Assembly: GCF_000337895.1 (NCBI RefSeq)
Contig: NZ_AOMA01000011.1
Location: 566-46,835 of the forward strand
From: Halobiforma nitratireducens JCM 10879
Lineage (GTDB): Archaea > Halobacteriota > Halobacteria > Halobacteriales > Natrialbaceae
DNA: 46,270 nucleotides
Direction of reading: 5' to 3'
Shown here: positions 11,781 through 43,203 of the stretch, one piece after another
Layout of the letters: each line of letters starts with the position of its first letter
How positions within the stretch are numbered: the first letter of the stretch is position 1
Made by a program: the position numbers and the translations under genes
The notes under the pieces: generated by a model
The model's database searches: none
What the model was told of the DNA's origin: nothing
What the model saw: only the letters and a program-made list of their open reading frames with translations

Positions 11781-12096
11781 CGCGGACCTGACGGATTCCG
11801 AACATTCTCGACAGCAATCAGGGATTTTGACGTAACGTTTTTCTAGTTATATACTTATTCTGCCGTTCTTATAAGGGAGTTTATTTTTTGACCGGTGGTA
11901 ACTGACGACGATAATTGTGCAACCACCACACAACGTCGCCGAGGCAGTCGGTTTCGATCATCCGTGCTGTAGTGGTTGAACACACCCGTCTAACAGAGGT
12001 GACTCTTCAGAATACGTTACAGCATATACATAATATAATGGACTCATGGCCGAAGGTTTATTGTAGTACGTCATAGTTATGCGCCCGAGTTTAGGA
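11781..12096 (+). other. AT-rich intergenic region with inverted repeat
   Basis: This 316-bp gap is far richer in A/T than the flanking genes, with runs such as ttttctagttatatac and catatacataatataatg. It contains an 11-bp inverted repeat with one mismatch (11920-11930 and 11968-11978, spacer 37 nt). No open reading frame of coding character is seen. The 3' end (about 12055-12064) supplies a TATA-like box for the next gene. Confidence 0.5.
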
Positions 12097-15000
12097 ATGT
12101 CAGTCGCAAGCGAGATTCACCAGAGCTTATATCGGCTCTACGAGCACTACGTTGGGGAACCGGACTCGGGGAAGGACGTATACGGCTACTGGCTGTTCAT
12201 TCTCGGCTACATCATCGGTGCCGCGGGGATCGTCGCGTTCATCATCGGCTACGGTGGCAGCATCGCCGAGGAGATGCTGATCCGCATCTCCGGCGTCGCG
12301 GCGTCTACCGGACTCGCGCTCTGTCTGTTCGGGATCGGACTGATGCTCCCGATGCGAAAGCGCGGGGTTCAGGCGAGCGTGGTCGGGCTGTTGGTTTCGT
12401 TGGTCGGTGTCGTACTGTACGGGTACGTGTACCCGAGTGACTGGCGTCATCGGGGGGCTGGATACGACGTGGAAGTGATCGCGGTCTATGCCGCAGGAAT
12501 CGCGATCATCGCGGGCGTTGCGGCGCTCGTTCCCGTCCTTACGGGGCGGAAAGGGATGTTCGTCGAGGAAGAAGGAACGAGCGAGGACCCGCCGATCCTC
12601 ACCGGCGACGCGCTCACGGACGCGCAGTTCGCCGTCTTCCGGGACGAGCACGGCGATTGGAAGTGGAACGTGCTTCACCGCGAGGCGCTTGCAACGAGCA
12701 ACGATAGCGCGGTCACGCGCCCGGAGGCTCGCGAGGGAATCGAACGAGTCAAGTCCCAGATCAGTTCGGCCGGGCTGATGGAGCTGACGACCTCGGCGTT
12801 CCGACTGTACGAGGATCGAGACGGGACCTGGCAGTGGACGCTCGCACGCGACGACGGGAGCGTCGTCGCTAACTGTGGGCGTGAGTTCGACCGCCGGGAC
12901 GGTGCCGAAAAGTCAGTGAGCTTCCTGAAAGATCGTGGCCCCGAGGCCGACGTCATCGAGATCGAGGGTGCCGCGTTCACCTACGCCGAGGAACGTGGCA
13001 AGTGGTACTGGCAACTGGTCGACGACGATCACAACCAGCTCGCTGGCCACGAATCCGGGTTCACCGATCAGGACGCTGCGGAGTCGGCGGCCCGAACCTT
13101 CGCCGAACGAGTCGACGACGCGCGACTGCTCGACATCGAGCATCTGGGCGTCGAACTCTACGAGGAGGACGCCGATCAGTGGACCTGGCGGTTCGTCGAC
13201 GACGCGGACGACATCATCGCGGACGCCGTCGCCAGCTACGACAGTCGACGCGAGGCCGAGGACGCAGCGGACGCGTTGCTTCCCGGTTTCGAGTCGGCGT
13301 CGGTAACCGTCGCCGGGGAGCCGACTTACGAGCTGTACGAGTCGGGCGAACACTGGCACTGGCGGCTCGTCGACGCCGGCGAGGATATCGTCGCCCGCGG
13401 ACCTGACGGCGTAGTGAATCACGATCGGATCGAGTGGGAGACGAAACAGTTCGACGCGAGCGCGAGCGACGCCGACGTCATCGAGATCGACGAGGCGGAG
13501 TACGAAGTGTACCCATCGGCGGCTGCCGGTGGAACCGGGGACGACTCGGACGACCTGCCGGCACGAGTCGAGGAACCTGCAGCGACCGACGGTGGGACCG
13601 AAGTTTCCTTCGACGAGGACGAGGCCGCCGATGGGCGCGACTGGCACTGGCGGCTCGTCACCGAAGACCGCGAGGTCGTCGCGGCAAGCACCGAACCTCA
13701 CACCGACTCCGAAGCGGCTGCCGCCGCGATCGAGCGGGTCCGCGAGCAGGCGAGTGAAGCCGACCTGATCGAGTTCGAACACGCCGCGTTCCAGGTCTAC
13801 GAGGCCGACTCCGGCGAGTGGCGCTGGCGGCTCATCGACGAAGACGGCAACGTCCTGGCCGACAGCGGCGAGGAGCACACGACCCGCAGCGAAGCCGCCG
13901 AGGCGATGATGACGCTGAAAGAGCAGGCCCCCGATGCCGAACTGCTCGAGATCGACACCGCCGCGTTCGAACTGTTCGTCAACGAGGACGACGAGTGGGG
14001 CTGGCGGCTCATCGACGAGGCCGGAAAGCTGGTCGCGGAAGACCCGTCGACCCATCCGACCCGCGGGGCCGCTCGCGACGCGATGAACCGTCTGCTCGAC
14101 CACCTCGATTCCGACGTGCGAACGATGGATCGGGCCGCGTTCCAGACGTACGCCGCCGAGGACTGGCACTGGCGGTTCGTCCTGCCATCCGGCGACATCG
14201 TCGCAGTCGACGACGAGTCGTATCCGACGCGGGACGCGCTGGTCGACGACCTCGAGTCGATCCGGCGGGACGCGACCGACGCACACCGTTCGACGATCGG
14301 CGACGCCACGGTTCAGCTCTACCGTAACGGCGACTGGACGTGGCGGCTCCTCGATCGGGACCGCGAGGAGATCGCGGACGCGACGGTTACCTACGAGGAC
14401 CGCGAGGCCGCGGTCGCACACGTCGACGACTGTCAGGCCCACGCCGCCGAAGCACCGATCTTCACCATCGAGGACGCGGCGATCCGCCTCGACGAAAGCG
14501 AAGGCAGCTGGCGCTGGGAACTGGTCGACGACGAGCGGACGGTACTCGCACACGGCGAGACCGAGGCCGACAGCAAGGACGCGGCGATCGATCGGATCGA
14601 CGAGGTCAAGAAACTCGCTCCGATGGCCGGCCGCGTCGACTTCGATGTCGCCTCGTTCGAACTCGTTGCCGACGAGGACGACCGCTGGCGCTGGCGGCTG
14701 ATCGACGAGGACGGGTACCCCGTCGCGAGTGGGACCGAAACCTACGACTCGAGCGAGGCCGCCCGCTCGGCCTTGGACGACGCCCGCGAGTTGATCGAGC
14801 GTGCGAGTATCCTCGAGATCGACAGCGTCTCGTTCGAGCTCCACACCGACGAGGACGGCTGGGTGTGGCGGCTGGTCGACGAGTTCGGCTCGACGATGGC
14901 CGAGAGTACCCAGACCTACGAGAACCGTACCGAGGCTCGCGAGGCGATGAACGCGGTGAAGTCTCACGCGCCCGACGGCTGGATCACGTTCACCGAGTAA
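12097..15000 (+). CDS. Membrane-anchored protein with 13 DUF1508/YegP-like repeats
   Basis: A 967-aa protein. Four transmembrane segments occupy about residues 27-155, starting with Y-W-L-F-I-L-G-Y. From about residue 188 to 922 there are 13 tandem repeats spaced about 60 residues apart, each with a W-x-W core followed by R-L-V/I-D-x-x-G/D, an A-x-S turn and a Glu/Ala-rich helix. The pattern matches the DUF1508 (YegP) beta-hairpin/helix motif, which usually occurs in one or two copies. Repeat 6 has a Gly/Asp/Glu-rich insertion of about 30 residues. Start 12097 is chosen because the conserved-looking helix begins there; an ATG at 12079 is possible. It separates the two CoA genes. The repeats probably face the cytoplasm or cell surface as a multivalent binding array; the ligand is unknown. 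Confidence 0.8.
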   Translation: MSVASEIHQSLYRLYEHYVGEPDSGKDVYGYWLFILGYIIGAAGIVAFIIGYGGSIAEEMLIRISGVAASTGLALCLFGIGLMLPMRKRGVQASVVGLLVSLVGVVLYGYVYPSDWRHRGAGYDVEVIAVYAAGIAIIAGVAALVPVLTGRKGMFVEEEGTSEDPPILTGDALTDAQFAVFRDEHGDWKWNVLHREALATSNDSAVTRPEAREGIERVKSQISSAGLMELTTSAFRLYEDRDGTWQWTLARDDGSVVANCGREFDRRDGAEKSVSFLKDRGPEADVIEIEGAAFTYAEERGKWYWQLVDDDHNQLAGHESGFTDQDAAESAARTFAERVDDARLLDIEHLGVELYEEDADQWTWRFVDDADDIIADAVASYDSRREAEDAADALLPGFESASVTVAGEPTYELYESGEHWHWRLVDAGEDIVARGPDGVVNHDRIEWETKQFDASASDADVIEIDEAEYEVYPSAAAGGTGDDSDDLPARVEEPAATDGGTEVSFDEDEAADGRDWHWRLVTEDREVVAASTEPHTDSEAAAAAIERVREQASEADLIEFEHAAFQVYEADSGEWRWRLIDEDGNVLADSGEEHTTRSEAAEAMMTLKEQAPDAELLEIDTAAFELFVNEDDEWGWRLIDEAGKLVAEDPSTHPTRGAARDAMNRLLDHLDSDVRTMDRAAFQTYAAEDWHWRFVLPSGDIVAVDDESYPTRDALVDDLESIRRDATDAHRSTIGDATVQLYRNGDWTWRLLDRDREEIADATVTYEDREAAVAHVDDCQAHAAEAPIFTIEDAAIRLDESEGSWRWELVDDERTVLAHGETEADSKDAAIDRIDEVKKLAPMAGRVDFDVASFELVADEDDRWRWRLIDEDGYPVASGTETYDSSEAARSALDDARELIERASILEIDSVSFELHTDEDGWVWRLVDEFGSTMAESTQTYENRTEAREAMNAVKSHAPDGWITFTE

Positions 15001-19126: not shown

Positions 19127-20401
19127 ATGACCGAGTGGGAAACCGGAACCACACTCGCGGATCGGTACACCCTCCGCGAGGAACTCGGCAAAGGCGGGTT
19201 CGGCGTCGTCTGGGCGGCGAAAGACAGCGATCGAGACCGACTCGTCGCGCTGAAACACCCCAACTACGGCGGCCAGGCACCCGACGACCTCGTCGACAAG
19301 TACTTCGAGCGCGAGCGGGACGTCCTCGAGGACATCCGTGAGGCAGGGGGCCATCCGAACATCATGGCCTATCACGGCCAGGCGCGTGCGAACGGGACGG
19401 CGTTTCTGGACATCGAGTTGATCGACGGTGACGAACTCGGTGCAGTCGTCGAGAACGAGGATCCGATCGGTGATCCCGACGAAGTTCGTGAGATCGGTAT
19501 CGGAATCTGTGACGCGATTTCGTTCCTGCACGATCACGACATCATCTACCGGGACCTCAAACCCGACAACATCATGATTGACGGCGCTCGCGAGCCGAAG
19601 ATCATCGACTTCACCACGGCCAAGGGGTTCGTCCCCGAACGGGGCGGGCCCCAGTTTACGACCGGTGAGGGCGAGAGTTCCTCTTCGGGCGGCGATTCGA
19701 CCGTCCCTGGTGAGTTCAAACCGCCGGAACTGAACCGTGGCTCAGAACAGCGACAGGGGCCCTGGAGCGACGTCTACTCGATCGGGAAGATTCTCTGTTA
19801 CCTCCTCGTCGGCTGGGTCCCGAAGGATCACGGCGTTTCGCCGGCGGAGTTTGGCGTCGAGAGCGACGACTACCTGAACGAAATCGTCGAGACGGCGACC
19901 CAACACGACCGGTCGGATCGGTACCCGAACGCGTCGGTGTTACGGCGCGCCCTGGAGGACCGGGACGCGACGATGCCGACCCAGGCGGCGATCACCTGGC
20001 TCGGCCGCGACGAACAGTGGACGATCAGCCCCGGAGACACTATCGGACGGCGGACCGAAGACGGTCCGCGGCCGTCGCTGATGCTCTCTGACGACCGGCA
20101 CAAGGCACTATCGGCAGTCCACTGCCGGTTCGACGTGGACGACGACGGCAACTGGGCCGTGATCGACACCAGCCTCAACGGGACCTACATCAGCAAACAC
20201 GACGAACGGAACTGGCGCTTCCTGCTCTCGGAAGCCGGACAACAGCGCCAGCAACAGGCCGGCGAGTCGGTCCCCGACGACGTCGAGACTCGGGCCCGTC
20301 TGGAAGCCGGCGACACCATCGCACTGGTCAGTCCGAGCTATCCGGAGCGATTCTACTTCCAGTTTAGCACGCAACACACAGATACCAATGGAACACGCTA
20401 G
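19127..20401 (+). CDS. Hanks-type Ser/Thr protein kinase with C-terminal FHA domain
   Basis: A 424-aa soluble kinase. The glycine loop G-K-G-G-F-G-V-V starts at residue 21, the ATP lysine is K43, and the catalytic loop is Y-R-D-L-K-P-D-N with Asp143. The metal-binding motif is D-F-T at 161-163 rather than D-F-G, and P-P-E-L replaces A-P-E. The kinase fold ends near residue 285. A canonical FHA domain follows (about 298-410: I-G-R-R, L-S-A-V-H-C-R-F, S-L-N-G-T-Y). There is no transmembrane segment or PASTA repeat, so it is not a surface receptor. The last 14 bp overlap the phosphatase gene, suggesting translational coupling. Bacterial-style kinases of this kind are uncommon in archaea. Confidence 0.92.
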   Translation: MTEWETGTTLADRYTLREELGKGGFGVVWAAKDSDRDRLVALKHPNYGGQAPDDLVDKYFERERDVLEDIREAGGHPNIMAYHGQARANGTAFLDIELIDGDELGAVVENEDPIGDPDEVREIGIGICDAISFLHDHDIIYRDLKPDNIMIDGAREPKIIDFTTAKGFVPERGGPQFTTGEGESSSSGGDSTVPGEFKPPELNRGSEQRQGPWSDVYSIGKILCYLLVGWVPKDHGVSPAEFGVESDDYLNEIVETATQHDRSDRYPNASVLRRALEDRDATMPTQAAITWLGRDEQWTISPGDTIGRRTEDGPRPSLMLSDDRHKALSAVHCRFDVDDDGNWAVIDTSLNGTYISKHDERNWRFLLSEAGQQRQQQAGESVPDDVETRARLEAGDTIALVSPSYPERFYFQFSTQHTDTNGTR

Positions 20402-22025
20402 TACAGTCGACATCGGCGAACGAAAACGACGGAGTGGCGGCATCAACGAGGACAGTATCGCGACGGCGGTGCTCGAGAACCACCACCGATCGGAGAGCCG
20501 ACCGGTGGGTATCTTCGTTCTCGGTGACGGCGTCGGCGGCGAAGCGAGCGGGGACGTCGCTTCCTTCCTGGCGACGACCGTGGTCCGCAAGCGACTCACG
20601 GATACACTGCTGGGCGACGGGACCGACCTGCTGGAGCGATTCGAGATCGACGCCTACGACGGCCCGCCGCCGACCGCCGGGGAACGCACTGGGTCCGCGC
20701 TGTCGCCCCGGCGCATCCGAACGGCCATCCAGGAGGCGGTCGACGACGCCCACCAGCAGATTCAGGAGTACGCCCGCGAAATCGACGGACGACCCGCGAC
20801 CACGCTCGTCGTCGGCGTCTACGTCGACGGCCGACTCCACTACGGCTGGGTCGGTGACAGCCGTCTCTACCTCGTCAACGCACGCCACGAGGAGATTCAG
20901 CAGCTCACGACGGATCATGCAGTCACCAACGAGATGCTCGAGCGAGGCGAAATCGACGACGAGGTCGGTGCGCGCGTCCACAGGCGGAACACGGCGATCA
21001 CGAGCGCCATCGGCGGCTCGCCACACGGGAAGCCGACGGTCGACGTCGAGTTCGGCTCCGTCGATGTCTACCAGGACGATATCTTCCTGTTGACCAGTGA
21101 CGGTCTGATCGACGCCTATCCCGACGTCGCGCCCCTTCGTGCCGAGTACGAACAGGCCGACGATGCGGACACAGACGACGTCCGCGAAGAGATCCTCGAG
21201 ACCCTGGTCACCGACGACGAGATCAGGGATATCGTCCTCGAGGCCGCGGACCTCCAGGCGGGCGTCGAGGAACTGATCGCGTTTGCCAACGACCGGGGCG
21301 GGAAAGACAACCTCTCGGTCGCGCTCGCTCGGGACCCCGGCGCTGCCCCCACACCGGAGACGATCGCGGACAGGCCCTCCGCGACCGAACCCAACGACCT
21401 GACCGACCAGGAGACGGTCATCGAGACGCCGGAATCGGACCTCGACTCCGGGGCTGGAGACGATTCCGATCCGGTATCGAACCGGACCGCGACCGAGCCC
21501 CACGAGTCGGCGTCGTCCCCCGATGTCGTCTCGGCGACCGGGCCGGAACTGGCTACTGCAGCGATCAAGATCGCGGGGACGGACACGATCTACGAGATCG
21601 TCGACGGCGTCACGATCGGCCGAGACGACGACGAGGCCGAGGGTGCTGGACCGAACATCTGTCTCGTCGTCGAAGACGACACCGTCGAACGACACCACGC
21701 CCGAGTCGAACGCAACGAGGACGGCGACTGGTGGCTCCGCGATACCAGCGACGCCGGCACGTTCGTGGAGGACGACGACGAGTGGATTCGTCTCTGCTCG
21801 ACGGACGAGACGAGCGACGACGAGACGCACGACTCCGACGACGGGTTCGTCGATGACGGCCCCGAAGCACACCGGCTTCGAGACGGCACGACGTTCACGC
21901 TCGAGGACCCACGGGAGACGGATCCGATCGCGTTTCGTTTCTTCGGCGGCGTCGAACTGGCCCAGGGGTCGACGGACGAAGACGCAGCGACGAACGACGG
22001 GTTCCTCGACCGGTTCCGCTCGTAG
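20388..22025 (+). CDS. PP2C-type protein phosphatase with C-terminal FHA-like domain
   Basis: A 545-aa protein. The PP2C fold (about residues 1-315) has all metal ligands: G-I-N-E-D at 18-22, G-D-G-V-G-G with Asp47, W-V-G-D-S-R, L-T-S-D-G-L, and G-G-K-D-N-L. An acidic linker of about 75 residues leads to an FHA-like domain (about 395-515) with I-G-R, V-E-R-H-H-A-R-V and D-T-S-D-A-G-T-F; the Asn normally before Gly-Thr is Ala, so phosphopeptide binding may be weak. It overlaps the kinase gene by 14 bp, so the pair is probably made together and opposes one another on the same targets. It is convergent with the membrane protein gene, 71 bp away. Confidence 0.92.
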   Translation: MEHASTVDIGERKRRSGGINEDSIATAVLENHHRSESRPVGIFVLGDGVGGEASGDVASFLATTVVRKRLTDTLLGDGTDLLERFEIDAYDGPPPTAGERTGSALSPRRIRTAIQEAVDDAHQQIQEYAREIDGRPATTLVVGVYVDGRLHYGWVGDSRLYLVNARHEEIQQLTTDHAVTNEMLERGEIDDEVGARVHRRNTAITSAIGGSPHGKPTVDVEFGSVDVYQDDIFLLTSDGLIDAYPDVAPLRAEYEQADDADTDDVREEILETLVTDDEIRDIVLEAADLQAGVEELIAFANDRGGKDNLSVALARDPGAAPTPETIADRPSATEPNDLTDQETVIETPESDLDSGAGDDSDPVSNRTATEPHESASSPDVVSATGPELATAAIKIAGTDTIYEIVDGVTIGRDDDEAEGAGPNICLVVEDDTVERHHARVERNEDGDWWLRDTSDAGTFVEDDDEWIRLCSTDETSDDETHDSDDGFVDDGPEAHRLRDGTTFTLEDPRETDPIAFRFFGGVELAQGSTDEDAATNDGFLDRFRS

Positions 22026-26105: not shown

Positions 26106-27071
26106 ATGAACGAGACGCGACGGGCGATCCTCGAGGCGCTTTCCGACGGGCCGGTTTCGGGACCGGAACTCGCCGACTCACTCGAGGTCTCGCGGGCAGC
26201 GGTCTGGAAACACGTCGAGGAGCTCCGCAAAGCCGGTTTCGACGTCGAGAGTGAGCCGACAGGGTACCGACTCGAGGAAGTTTCGGCCTACAGCGGCCCG
26301 GCCGTCGAGTTCGGTCTCGAGGCCCCCTTCGAAATCGAGTACCACGACGCGATCGGGAGTACCAACGACCGCGCCCGCGAACTCGCAGGCGAGGGTGTTG
26401 CCGACGTCGTCGTCCTCGCGGACGAACAGACCGGTGGCCGGGGCCGCCTCGACCGCGAGTGGGCCGCACCGTCCGGCGGCGTCTGGGCGAGCGTCGTCAC
26501 CCGGCCGGCCGTCGCGCCGCTGCGGGCACCGTTGTTTACGCTCGCTGCGGCGGTCGCGACGGCTCGAGCGGCCCGCGAGGCGGGCGTCGACGCGGGGATC
26601 AAGTGGCCGAACGACGTGGTCGTGCCGGGGGGCGGCGAGGACAGCAACGGACCCGAGTACCACAAACTCGCCGGTATCCTCACCGAGATGGAAGGCGAGA
26701 CGGACCGCGTCGAGTGGCTGGTCGTCGGCATCGGGGTCAACGCGAACGTCGACCGCGGCTCGTTGCCCGACGGAGCGACCAGCATCCGCGACGAAGCAGG
26801 TGACGTCGACCGCAGGCGGTTCGTCCAGCGGCTCCTAGAGGAGTTCGAGTCGCTCCGAACGGACCTCGAGTCGGTCGTTCCGGCCTGGTCCGACCTCGCG
26901 TTGACGCTCGGCCAGCGCGTCCGTGTCGACCGACCGAGCGGCGAGGTCGTCGGTGAGGCAGTCGACGTAACCGACTCGGGAGCCCTCCTCGTCGAACCCG
27001 ACGAAGGCAGCGAGGGGAGCGACCACGTCACCGTCGCTGCGGGCGACTGTGAACACTTGCGGCCGGTTTGA
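26106..27071 (+). CDS. birA: Biotin--[acetyl-CoA carboxylase] ligase with N-terminal HTH (BirA)
   Basis: A 321-aa bifunctional protein. Residues 1-60 form a winged helix (L-E-V-S-R-A-A-V-W-K-H-V-E-E-L-R), the DNA-binding biotin sensor. The ligase domain has S-T-N-D, E-Q-T-G-G-R-G-R-L-D-R-E-W, the biotinoyl-AMP lysine region K-W-P-N-D, and K-L-A-G-I-L-T-E, with a C-terminal SH3-like cap. It attaches biotin to carboxylase subunits and may repress biotin genes. Start 26106 is preferred over 26076, with a TATA-like gttgaagtac 27 nt upstream. The gene ends 6 bp from the convergent stress-protein gene. The only biotin gene seen nearby is the degenerate BioF-like gene at 40565. Confidence 0.93.
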   Translation: MNETRRAILEALSDGPVSGPELADSLEVSRAAVWKHVEELRKAGFDVESEPTGYRLEEVSAYSGPAVEFGLEAPFEIEYHDAIGSTNDRARELAGEGVADVVVLADEQTGGRGRLDREWAAPSGGVWASVVTRPAVAPLRAPLFTLAAAVATARAAREAGVDAGIKWPNDVVVPGGGEDSNGPEYHKLAGILTEMEGETDRVEWLVVGIGVNANVDRGSLPDGATSIRDEAGDVDRRRFVQRLLEEFESLRTDLESVVPAWSDLALTLGQRVRVDRPSGEVVGEAVDVTDSGALLVEPDEGSEGSDHVTVAAGDCEHLRPV

Positions 27072-38542: not shown

Positions 38543-40096
38543 ATGAGCGACTGGACCGAGAAGTACCGTCCGACGACCCTGTCGGAGGTACGCGGGAACA
38601 ACAAGGCCCGCGACCAGCTGAAAGAGTGGGCCGAGACGTGGGACGACCACCGTGACGCGGTGATCGTCCACGGCAGCCCCGGCGTGGGGAAGACCTCCGC
38701 CGCCCACGCGCTGGCAAACGACATGGGCTGGCCGATGATGGAACTCAACGCCAGTGACAACCGCCAGGCCGACGTGATCGAACGCATCGCCGGCGAAGCC
38801 TCGAAGACCGGTACCCTCACGGCCGGCGGCTCGGGCCGTCGACTGGTCATCTTAGACGAGGCCGATAACTTCCACGGCAACGCCGACTACGGCGGTTCGC
38901 GGGAGGTAACCCGCGTCGTCAAGAACGCCACCCAGCCGGTCGTCCTCGTGGCCAACGAGTTCTACGATATGAGCCAGTCGCTTCGTAACGCCTGCGAGAC
39001 GATCGAGTTCCGGGACGTTTCGAAACGATCGATCGTCCCAGTGTTGCGAGACATCTGTCGCAAGGAGGGAGTGGAGTTCGAGGACGACGCCCTCGAGAAG
39101 ATTGCCGAGGACACGAGCGGGGACCTGCGTTCGGCGGTCAACGACCTGCAGGCGGTCGCCGAGGAAGCCGAGCGACTCACCGTCGAGGACGTAGTTACGG
39201 GTCAGCGCGACACCACCGAAGGGATCTTCGACTTCCTGGATACGCTGATCAAGGAGGAGGACGCCCAGGGGGCGCTGCAGGCCTCCTACGACGTCGACGA
39301 GAACCCCGACGAGATGTTGAACTGGATCGAGGACAACGTCCCGAAAGACTACGAGGGCGACGAGTTGGCCGACGCCTACGAGTTCCTCTCGAACGCCGAC
39401 CGCTGGCTCGGTCGGGTGCGCTCGACGCAGAACTACTCGTTCTGGCGGTACGCGACCGACAACATGACCGCGGGAGTTGCCGCGTCGCGTTGCGAGCCGA
39501 AAGGCGGCTGGACGCGGTACGGCCCGCCGAGCTACTGGTCGAAACTCGGGCGGACGAAAGGTACCAGAAACACCCGCGACGCCATCGCGGAGCGTATCGC
39601 CGAACGCGAGGGGACGAGCGTGGCGACGGCCCGACTGGAGATACTTCCGTTCCTCTCGGCGATGACCCATCACTGCAAGAACCGCGAACTCACCGTCCAG
39701 ATGGCGGCGATCTACGACCTCGACGAGGCCGAGGTGTCGTTCGTCACCGGCAGCGGCAAAACCACCAACAAGGTCCAGTCGATCGTCGAGGACGCCGAAC
39801 AGCGGCGGACCGAAGCGACCGTCGAACACTCCGGGAACGCCTTTTTCGACGCCGGAGAGGGTGACGATGGCCCACAGGATAGCCAAGACAGCGAGGCCGA
39901 GGCTGTAACTGAGTCCGAAAGTGGCTCCCGGTCGTCCGACGGATCGGACGACACGAACGGCCAGGCGACGTTAGCCGCCTCGAGCGCAAGCGATGGGGAG
40001 TCCGGCCCGGCTGCCGACTCCGACGGCGAGACGGGGAGTGCGGACGCCAACTCGGAGCCGGACGACGATCAGTCCGGACTGAACGACTTCCTCTGA
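38543..40096 (+). CDS. rfcL: Replication factor C large subunit
   Basis: A 517-aa AAA+ clamp-loader subunit. It starts W-T-E-K-Y-R-P, has Walker A G-S-P-G-V-G-K-T and Walker B I-L-D-E-A-D, and a sensor 1-like V-A-N-E-F-Y. The collar domain follows. The acidic disordered C-terminus ends Q-S-G-L-N-D-F-L, a PIP box (Q-x2-L-x2-F-L) that docks onto PCNA. With small subunits it loads PCNA on primed DNA. A TATA-like ccactaaac is about 28 nt upstream of the ATG. Divergent from the methionine synthase operon. Confidence 0.96.
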   Translation: MSDWTEKYRPTTLSEVRGNNKARDQLKEWAETWDDHRDAVIVHGSPGVGKTSAAHALANDMGWPMMELNASDNRQADVIERIAGEASKTGTLTAGGSGRRLVILDEADNFHGNADYGGSREVTRVVKNATQPVVLVANEFYDMSQSLRNACETIEFRDVSKRSIVPVLRDICRKEGVEFEDDALEKIAEDTSGDLRSAVNDLQAVAEEAERLTVEDVVTGQRDTTEGIFDFLDTLIKEEDAQGALQASYDVDENPDEMLNWIEDNVPKDYEGDELADAYEFLSNADRWLGRVRSTQNYSFWRYATDNMTAGVAASRCEPKGGWTRYGPPSYWSKLGRTKGTRNTRDAIAERIAEREGTSVATARLEILPFLSAMTHHCKNRELTVQMAAIYDLDEAEVSFVTGSGKTTNKVQSIVEDAEQRRTEATVEHSGNAFFDAGEGDDGPQDSQDSEAEAVTESESGSRSSDGSDDTNGQATLAASSASDGESGPAADSDGETGSADANSEPDDDQSGLNDFL

Positions 40097-40564: not shown

Positions 40565-41773
40565 TCACAGCAGTCCGATCTCTTCGCCGGCTGCCTGTAG
40601 CGACTCGAGACAGTCGACCACGTCGTCGGATTCGTGGGTCGCCATCGGCGTCACGCGAAGCCGCCACTCCTCGTCCGAAGCGAACGGCGGAGCAACTGCC
40701 GGTGCGACGATTCCACGCTCGCGGAGTCCGTCGGCCAGCGCGACGGCGTCCGACTCGTCGCCGACGCGAACGGTGAGAATCTGTGATTCGCCGAGGACAT
40801 CTAGACCCATCGTCCGGAGCCCGTCCTGGAGGTGAGCGACGTTCTCCCAGATGCGCTCGCGGGCGTCGCCGTGTCGGGCGCGGTGTAGCGCCTCGCTCGC
40901 GGCTGCGGCAGCCGTCGGGGCAAGCCCGACTGAAGCGTCGAACAGTCGTAACTCCTGGAGCAGACAGTCGACGAGTGCGTCGCTTCCCGCGACGTAGCCG
41001 CCCTGGCTGGCCAGTGCCGTCCCGAGCGATCCGAACTGGACGTGGATGTGCTCCTCGAGCCCTTCGGCCTGGACGACCCCGCCACCGCCCGCGTAGAGCC
41101 CGGTGGCGTGGGTTTCGTCGACTGCGACCCAGGCACCGAACTCCGCGGCGCTTGTACAGATCGCTGCCAGCGGAGCCACGGTGCCGTCGACGTCGAAGAC
41201 CGTGTTCGTCGCGACGAGCCAGGACTCGGTCGCAGTTCCCTCGGCTGCCCGAGCCTCGAGTGCCGAGCGGAGACTCTCGGAATCGCAGTGGTCGTATGTA
41301 ACGAGTTCGGCGTCGGCCAGCCGGCAGCCGTCGACGACAGACGGGTGTGTCGCCTCGTCGACGAAGACGACGTCCGGCTCGAGGGTGGTGAGTACGCCGG
41401 CAGCAGCGGCATACCGGGATGGAAAGGCGAGCGCGCGGTCGGTTCCTTCGGTTTCCGCGAGCTGTCGCTCGAGGTCGTGGTGAAGCAGCGTATCGCCCGT
41501 TCGAAGTCGGCTCGCGCCGGCCCCGGTGCCGACGGCCGCGGCGGCCTGTCGGACCGCGTTCTGGACCCGCTGGTCGTCAGTCAGTCCCAGATAGTTGTCC
41601 GAGCCAAACACCAGCAGTTCCTCGGATTCGAGCACCGGGAGATTACCACCGGACGCCGAGGCGAAATAACCACGCTCGGCTACCCGATCGACGGGTGATA
41701 GCTGCCCCCTCCGTTTGCTTTCCTCGACGGCCGCTCGACCCTCGAGGTCGAACCCGCGGTCACGGTCTGCCAT
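40565..41773 (-). CDS. BioF/KBL-like alpha-oxoamine synthase homologue lacking the PLP lysine
   Basis: A 402-aa protein with the fold type I layout of 8-amino-7-oxononanoate synthase: S-D-N-Y-L-G-L, G-A-G-A-S-R-L, the H-x-D-L-E-x-x-L segment, and the pyridine-binding D in V-D-E-T-H-A-T-G. The lysine that should hold PLP in the consensus G-T-L-S/G-K-A-L is Thr252 (codon acg, 41018-41020) in G-S-L-G-T-A-L-A-S-Q-G-G. The only lysine in the protein is near residue 20. It thus cannot form the usual internal aldimine and is probably inactive as KAPA synthase, or has another job. TATA-like sequence about 29 nt upstream; no bioA or bioD nearby. Confidence 0.8.
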   Translation of the reverse strand: MADRDRGFDLEGRAAVEESKRRGQLSPVDRVAERGYFASASGGNLPVLESEELLVFGSDNYLGLTDDQRVQNAVRQAAAAVGTGAGASRLRTGDTLLHHDLERQLAETEGTDRALAFPSRYAAAAGVLTTLEPDVVFVDEATHPSVVDGCRLADAELVTYDHCDSESLRSALEARAAEGTATESWLVATNTVFDVDGTVAPLAAICTSAAEFGAWVAVDETHATGLYAGGGGVVQAEGLEEHIHVQFGSLGTALASQGGYVAGSDALVDCLLQELRLFDASVGLAPTAAAAASEALHRARHGDARERIWENVAHLQDGLRTMGLDVLGESQILTVRVGDESDAVALADGLRERGIVAPAVAPPFASDEEWRLRVTPMATHESDDVVDCLESLQAAGEEIGLL

Positions 41774-42195
41774 TCGCGTGAACGGAAATCACGGGGTCGT
41801 TTTACTCTCACGGTTCCGGTCGAGAGTGTGTATCGGACACACACCCGCGTGCCGATCGTCGCTTCATCGTATCGACGGATTCCGGAGGGTACGGATGGTC
41901 AGTTCGAATCCGGCCTCCCCTCTCCTGTGTCTCCAGGACGATCGAAACGACAGCCGACGGCCAGAAGTGTGAGACACGACACCGACCGAGTTCGGACGGC
42001 CACGAGCCGCTCGTTTCGTCCCGTCGTGTTGTCGATTTCGAGAAAACTCGTTTAATCTGGACGTATGTCCACCACTTGCCGCCGGCACTCGCGTGATCGG
42101 CCGACACGCTAATGTAGATCTCCTCTTGCACGTCCTCCGTGCAAAAATTCCAAAAGTTAAATAGCTGTGAAAATGTAGTTGTACGAAATCGACTT
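41774..42195. other. Intergenic region with divergent promoters and inverted repeats
   Basis: The 422-bp gap holds the BioF-like gene's promoter at the left (TATA-like near 41802), a 6-bp inverted repeat gtgtgt/acacac (41826-41842), a perfect 7-bp inverted repeat ttgcacg/cgtgcaa (42126-42144, spacer 5), and the TATA-like ttaaatag (about 42157-42164) of the right-hand gene. A gttcgaatc sequence near 41901 resembles a tRNA T-loop but has no matching stem. No coding frame is convincing. Confidence 0.45.
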
Positions 42196-43203
42196 ATGAC
42201 CGACAGTACGCTCGACGACGATACGGGGGAGCCCGGTGGCGCGGGCGGCGGTGGACTCGAGTTCTCCTCGAGTGCAGACGACCTGTTCGGCGGGATTGCG
42301 ACTGACGCCGTCGGGGAGCCGTCGATCGACGATCGTTCCGGGGGACAGACGGACGAGCGAACCGATGGGGACGTGGACGGGAACGGGGACGAAAACGGGA
42401 ACGGGAACGGGAACGGGATCGAGGATCGAACTGCAGCCTCCGTCTTCGGCGAACTCAAAAGCACCGTCGGCAACGACGCCGACGAACTGCTCGAGGACGA
42501 GACACCGGACGACATCATCGAAACCGCCGACGAACCGGAACCGGAACCCGAACCGGAGCCGGACGCCGACCTCGACGAGGACATCCTCGCCGACGAGGGC
42601 GAACTCGAGGATCTGCTGCTGACGGGCCGAACGAAAGACCAGGAGTTCCTCTGGGTCGATCCGGACAGCGATGGTGAGCACGCCGAACAGAAGGCGGAGG
42701 CTCGTGACGACGAACGTGACGGGTCTTCGACGGCCACAGAACCCGACATCGACTGGGCGGCCAACGTCGATATCGAGATCGGGACTGAGACGGAGTCGGA
42801 GTCGGTGTCTGAACCCGAACCTGAACCCGAAACCGAACCGGAGCTCGACGAAACGCACGCCGACACCGACGGTCAGTCCTCGAGCGACGGCGAGACGGCC
42901 GATGCCAGCAGTTCCGAGACGGAGCAGTCGGCACCGGAACGGGACGGTCAGGACAACGAGGAAAGAGTAGCCGACCGCAACGCGGACGACGGAGCGGCGT
43001 CGGACGGTCTCGACGAGTCCCGCTCGGCGTTCCGGACCACGTCCGATTCAACTCCCGAGACGGACGCCGAGGATTCGGCTTCCGCGGACGACCCCACGGC
43101 GTCGACCACGGCTTACGGAGCAGCAACCGACACCGAAACCAGCAGTTCGGACGACGAAACGCCAGGGTTCTTCAGTCGACTGCTCTCGAAACTGCCGTTT
43201 TAG
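42196..43203 (+). CDS. Acidic disordered protein with Pro-Glu and Gly-Asn repeats
   Basis: A 335-aa highly acidic protein. Conserved-looking pieces are near the N-terminus (L-E-F-S-S-S-A-D-D-L-F-G-G-I), a middle segment (S-V-F-G-E-L-K-S-T-V-G-N-D-A-D-E-L-L) and T-K-D-Q-E-F-L-W-V-D-P. Between them lie Asn-Gly and Pro-Glu repeats. The C-terminal 12 residues (G-F-F-S-R-L-L-S-K-L-P-F) form an amphipathic helix able to touch membrane or a partner. No catalytic motif is visible. Start 42196 follows a TATA-like ttaaatag by about 35 nt; the longer frame to 42139 covers the promoter. Confidence 0.7.
   Translation: MTDSTLDDDTGEPGGAGGGGLEFSSSADDLFGGIATDAVGEPSIDDRSGGQTDERTDGDVDGNGDENGNGNGNGIEDRTAASVFGELKSTVGNDADELLEDETPDDIIETADEPEPEPEPEPDADLDEDILADEGELEDLLLTGRTKDQEFLWVDPDSDGEHAEQKAEARDDERDGSSTATEPDIDWAANVDIEIGTETESESVSEPEPEPETEPELDETHADTDGQSSSDGETADASSSETEQSAPERDGQDNEERVADRNADDGAASDGLDESRSAFRTTSDSTPETDAEDSASADDPTASTTAYGAATDTETSSSDDETPGFFSRLLSKLPF

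Follow-up and report, generated by a model that had tools for sequence, protein, structure and literature searches.

The window studied here, a stretch of DNA of 46,270 nucleotides, encodes a protein of 402 amino acids with the fold of BioF (alpha-oxoamine synthase family) and without the lysine that binds PLP; this protein is probably a BioF-derived pseudoenzyme that has been kept for a lysine-independent role predating the loss of biotin synthesis. Enzymes of this class are defined by their PLP lysine, and a gene that has lost it is usually taken to be dead. No report of a lysine-less BioF was found in the open-licence literature, a scope outside which most subscription journals lie.

The gene (40565–41773, minus strand) was delimited by its open frame, its Pfam and NCBIfam matches and its predicted fold; the frame runs from an ATG at 41773 down to 40565 and is uninterrupted over 402 codons. 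The protein was matched by Pfam PF00155 (Aminotran_1_2) with 141.5 bits. Its top NCBIfam model was bioF with 283.8 bits, which falls short of the curated cut-off of this equivalog model (426.45), a comparison made for the window protein alone. Structure prediction gave a pTM of 0.84 and a mean pLDDT of 83.5 and was confident except for residues 1–3 and 18–48. By this prediction the AONS fold is present: structural comparison gave Z 39.4 (rmsd 2.1 Å over 332 residues) against E. coli AONS (1bs0), Z 42.8 against KBL (2-amino-3-ketobutyrate CoA ligase, 1fc4), Z 43.3 against serine palmitoyltransferase 3a2b and Z 39.6 against the human SPT complex chain 7k0i_A, the SPT chains being 22–24% identical to the window protein when structurally aligned. 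In the alignment to E. coli BioF, codon 252 (acg, Thr; 41018–41020, minus strand) stands at the place of the PLP-binding lysine K236, and K20 is the sole lysine of the protein, both as the sequence-only reading had claimed.

Flanked by sucCD and rfcL, the gene occupies the former biotin locus, from which bioB and bioD have gone. The convergent neighbour at 38543–40096 (plus strand), which we take to be rfcL by its sequence, marks the ancestral bio locus in relatives, its ortholog cluster (cluster 1) adjoining bioF or lying close to it in 15 of the 19 loci compared. In sequence family, fold and ancestral locus beside rfcL and sucCD the window protein is like E. coli BioF, and it differs in the missing lysine, in further active-site residues given below and in the departure of bioB and bioD. 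No new conserved neighbour or partner gene was found in the 19 loci; only rfcL, sucCD, an acidic protein and a USP-like gene recurred, all ancestral or general. The acidic low-complexity protein of the window (42139–43203) has no Pfam match, and similar acidic proteins lie near the locus in several relatives. A biotin protein ligase with an N-terminal HTH domain (26106–27071, plus strand; Pfam BPL_LplA_LipB, BPL_C and HTH_11) was found elsewhere in the window, as had been claimed, so biotin is used by the host; with its HTH domain this ligase is possibly a biotin-responsive repressor too. Farther off in the window, a Hanks-type protein kinase and, immediately after it, a PP2C-like phosphatase each have an FHA domain (19127–22025), and a 973-residue protein (12079–15000) contains a DUF7139 domain and six DUF1508 stretches.

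For the survey of the window's family, 125 genomes were searched (labelled G; genera are labelled g), 118 of which gave a BioF match, and position 252 was read in the fetched loci. It was K in 109 of 129 readable BioF-like proteins and another residue in 20 (T in 12, M, N and A in two each, Q and S in one each), so that Thr does recur among haloarchaeal relatives, together with five other residues. All five genomes of the window's genus are without the lysine (T, T, T, M, M). Copies without it were found in 10 of 29 genera, of which g3, g8, g12, g17 and g29 also contain lysine-bearing ones. All 20 lysine-less frames are free of internal stops. Rescue of PLP binding by another lysine was rejected because four of the 20 proteins contain no lysine anywhere and the others have theirs at scattered positions. 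A DNA pattern with a T, M, I, R or S codon before ALASQGG(Y/F), whose range does not include N, Q and A codons, had 14 matching genomes among 392 from the order, each belonging to the family and already found; its reversed control had no match in the 392 genomes. Fragments and distant copies (L128, L129 and L130, from G087b, G093b and G092b) were left out of the tree and of the column counts, and the sample does not contain the second bioF copy of G117 or some split second-bioF fragments of G092 and G093.

Orthology of the window protein to the lysine-bearing BioF of the family is indicated by the common locus and by best matches of 57–77% identity in most relatives. In the tree the lysine-less proteins have long branches and are interspersed among lysine-bearing ones, and the fewest state changes for the lysine are five, as counted on a quick tree with long branches. 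The loss of the lysine is neither an error nor recent.

Lysine loss tracks the orphaning of bioF. Among 127 copies, those with bioB or bioD within 8 kb were 98 with the lysine and one without (G084), and the orphans were nine with and 19 without (Fisher 7e-15, relatedness ignored). bioB is missing from 20 of the 125 family genomes, 14 of which keep BioF, and 12 of these 14 are lysine-less (G010 and G029 keep K); bioD is distributed much as bioB is. When the loss of bioB and that of the lysine were compared on the tree by independent pairs, four pairs stood on firm branches (0.9 agreeing in direction, 0 opposed, 3.1 without difference), too few for significance. In G089, where position 252 is A, a 149-residue piece of bioB still adjoins the lysine-less gene; the residue is T in G144 and K in the orphans G010 and G090. 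The bioA model (TIGR00508) was rejected as a pathway marker, paralogs being matched in 125 of 125 genomes and none above the cut-off. In genus g17, G084 and G086 have bioB beside bioF and no convincing bioD; G086 is 99% complete and its BioF keeps the lysine, which suggests that a different dethiobiotin step may exist. With completeness of at least 90% and contamination of at most 5% as limits, 111 of 111 genomes have BioY, which makes import of biotin plausible; none was found in the window's own assembly, which is 85% complete.

Active-site positions were numbered by E. coli BioF from the MG1655 record and compared with 107 lysine-bearing relatives. Besides the lysine, the window protein is changed at seven invariant or near-invariant positions, R21>G, N47>D, G108>R, E/D175>N, S179>D, T233>S and R349>A (E. 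coli numbering); five of these, R21, N47, S179, T233 and R349, we take to be substrate and cofactor residues of the E. coli enzyme, and they are G, D, D, S and A here. The Asp replacing S179 is D194 (41192–41194, minus strand; Ser in 104 of 107 lysine-bearing and 6 of 20 lysine-less proteins), and the Ala replacing R349 is A361 (40691–40693, minus strand; Arg in 105 of 107 and 4 of 20). Kept in the window protein are H143, D219 and H222, the equivalents of H133, D204 and H207, and among the 20 lysine-less proteins T233 is retained in three, R21 in 10, H133 in 13 and D204 and H207 in 19 each. The stretch after the lost lysine, S256-Q-G-G259 (40997–41008, minus strand), is identical in 20 of 20. 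The sequence-only view that the fold and the other PLP residues remain thus stands for the fold and for the two histidines and the aspartate, but is only partly right for the residues, because R21, S179, T233 and R349 are eroded as well. Linked copies define 149 conserved columns; the 20 lysine-less proteins all agree with them at 54 of these, and pocket positions are among the most eroded. Acidic low-complexity inserts were seen at about residues 178–184 in the lysine-less BioFs of genus g6 (G142, G143, G145, G144 and G036).

The changes in the pocket could themselves be adaptive, the active site having been remodelled so that it binds another ligand or runs a lysine-independent reaction, and we consider this unlikely. 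Parallel changes would fit it: A221 (E. coli A206) became T or S in 8 of 11 lineages, T249 became S in 7 of 11 and G120 became R in 4 of 11, the 11 lineages being our own grouping by genus and tree and not a computed result. D219 is also kept in 19 of 20 proteins, and neither R nor E, the likeliest one-step products of AAG, was found at position 252 in any of the 20 (at kappa 2, P 0.03 for 6 events and 0.005 for 9, a value that depends on the assumed number of events). Yet residue 252 is diverse (T, M, N, A, Q, S), which leaves no single new catalytic residue, and of the columns that used to be conserved, those of the pocket rank with the least retained.

Intermediate states were found among the orphans that still have the lysine. 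M195 (E. coli M180) was lost in nine of nine of them and is kept in 96 of 98 linked copies, and the orphan of G032 has its lysine and has lost the equivalents of R349, S179, H207 and H133; erosion of the pocket can therefore precede the loss of the lysine. Selection was measured with a codon model (GY94-type, F3x4) on hand-picked neighbouring pairs, from which the pair G082b–G081 was dropped as saturated (dS 43). Seven pairs in which both members are lysine-less gave dN/dS values of 0.076–0.166 (median 0.10), with omega = 1 rejected throughout (2dlnL 72–241), and 17 lysine-bearing pairs gave 0.027–0.112 (median 0.05). Selection on the lysine-less proteins is thus relaxed about twofold yet far from neutral. 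The Thr that G001 and G002, and likewise G142, G143 and G145, have in common makes parallel loss unlikely, so the selection measured in these pairs postdates the loss, and low dN/dS in pairs that diverged after the loss argues that the lysine-less protein is kept.

These values bear directly on the possibility that the gene is a decaying leftover, which lost its lysine after biotin synthesis was lost and is heading towards a pseudogene. Decay would produce an eroded active site, long branches and a dN/dS about twice that of lysine-bearing pairs, all of which are observed, and an open frame speaks against it with little force: in neutral simulations (60 runs each) no stop arose in 18% of runs at dS 0.19, the value of the closest pair, in 10% at dS 0.33 and in 0 of 60 at dS 0.43, a weak test. 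The intact 402-codon frame, which the sequence-only reading had taken to favour a kept function or very recent loss, is there, but it is a weak sign alone, and the codon-rate test decides. At 0.08–0.17 in pairs that split after the loss, with 0 of 20 frames interrupted and with 54 of 149 conserved columns fully retained, neither a dN/dS near 1 nor a broken frame, the marks of a pseudogene, was observed. The suggestion of a recently inactivated enzyme is not supported, since all five members of the genus are without the lysine and the codon changes after the loss were under strong purifying selection; the other suggestion of that reading, a repurposed PLP-fold protein, is supported by the same two observations.

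Decay is also opposed by what became of BioF outside the family. In an order-wide sample of 273 genomes, 56 of them in the window's family, BioF was kept in nine of nine bioB-less genomes of the family, and matches were found in 4 of 149 bioB-less genomes outside it. All four of these matches are KBL-like (31–34% identity to the window protein, K present, V at the R361 site), so that 0 of 149 kept a BioF ortholog; one of the four genes adjoins an epimerase-like gene. KBL, for all its likeness in fold, differs from the window protein in keeping its lysine, as it does in four of these four. No other observation suggests as strongly as this contrast between the family and its surroundings that BioF is of a second use to the clade. 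In the full survey of 125 family genomes, six of the 20 without bioB have no BioF; four of these are less than 71% complete, and G014 and G146 are at least 90% complete, so the role would be dispensable there. We judge the decaying leftover to be improbable.

A second bioF had been proposed as something to look for in the window's genome (G000), and it exists: a lysine-bearing copy on contig C124, 52% identical to the window protein, overlaps bioD and lies near bioB in a bioB-bioF-bioD cluster. Lysine-less BioFs in bioB-bearing genomes mostly occur with such a second, lysine-bearing BioF (G000, G003, G004, G033 and G082), the exceptions being G084 (77% complete), G030 and G081 (where the bioB match is split in two and stays under the cut-off). 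The second BioF of the window's genome (L002, G000:C124) is 99% identical to that of G003, against a much lower 67% for the orphan copies of these genomes, which suggests recent transfer.

LCB1/SPTLC1, the non-catalytic subunit of eukaryotic serine palmitoyltransferase, is described in PMC3794620 as having the alpha-oxoamine synthase fold without the PLP lysine and as evolutionarily kept, and in fold and missing lysine the window protein is like it. This known lysine-less member of the superfamily and the second BioF in the five genomes raise the idea that the window protein is a non-catalytic subunit whose partner would be an alpha-oxoamine synthase that has the lysine, in this case the second BioF. 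LCB1, however, requires its lysine-bearing partner LCB2, and at E ≤ 1e-30 no further alpha-oxoamine synthase was matched in 15 of the 20 genomes with a lysine-less protein; since a lysine-bearing partner is present in only five, the window's included, such a role is unlikely in general, and as an account of the group we give it very little weight. It is possible in the window's own genome. A sequencing or assembly error at codon 252, conceivable in an assembly of 205 contigs, was ruled out to near certainty, the lysine being missing also from four other members of the genus and from 15 further genomes, with several different codons.

The preferred reading, a BioF-derived pseudoenzyme kept for a lysine-independent role, was examined further through residues that mark the clade. 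Those kept in lysine-less copies include T65, D100, E107, S293, H297 and H301. D100 and E107 lie in a predicted helix (residues 96–109; 41447–41488, minus strand) and were both kept in 18 of 18 lysine-less proteins counted; S293, H297 and H301 lie in another (residues 286–301; 40871–40918, minus strand), with fractions kept of 1.00, 1.00 and 0.89 among the same 18, and none of 16 BioFs taken from outside the family has this trio. Clade-specific positions were kept at 92% vs 82% for universal ones, a difference that is not significant (p = 0.09; 18 of the 20 lysine-less proteins, G081 and G082b left out). The two helices are presumably close to each other, as judged from the fold in general and not from a computed distance.

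As a pseudoenzyme the window protein would no longer make 8-amino-7-oxononanoate and would probably no longer hold PLP covalently. It would probably still fold as an AONS dimer, because NYLGL, VGTGAGASR and SQGG stay invariant, stretches that we take to be core or interface-like in this fold. The second, lysine-free role would probably consist in binding a partner or a ligand through the surface marked by D100/E107 and S293/H297/H301, and it would have been present already in the lysine-bearing BioF of the clade before biotin synthesis went. Biotin synthesis in the window's genome would now rest on the second, lysine-bearing bioF beside bioB and bioD.

It is close to an even call, leaning slightly against, that the BioF of this family is in general a moonlighting protein, which makes the biotin precursor and has a lysine-independent function, and which became a pseudoenzyme after loss of the pathway independently in at least five lines. 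If so, these lines would be parallel natural experiments in the conversion of a PLP enzyme into a non-catalytic protein. All stages coexist in the family, namely the working enzyme, the orphan with its lysine, the orphan with an eroded pocket and its lysine (G032) and the lysine-less protein. Genes of this kind that are called bioF would imply biotin synthesis in organisms without bioB and bioD, which calls for caution in annotation. With repeated lysine loss in one archaeal family, frames that are always open and the rest of the protein still under selection, it becomes testable whether a textbook biotin enzyme has a second, hidden function.
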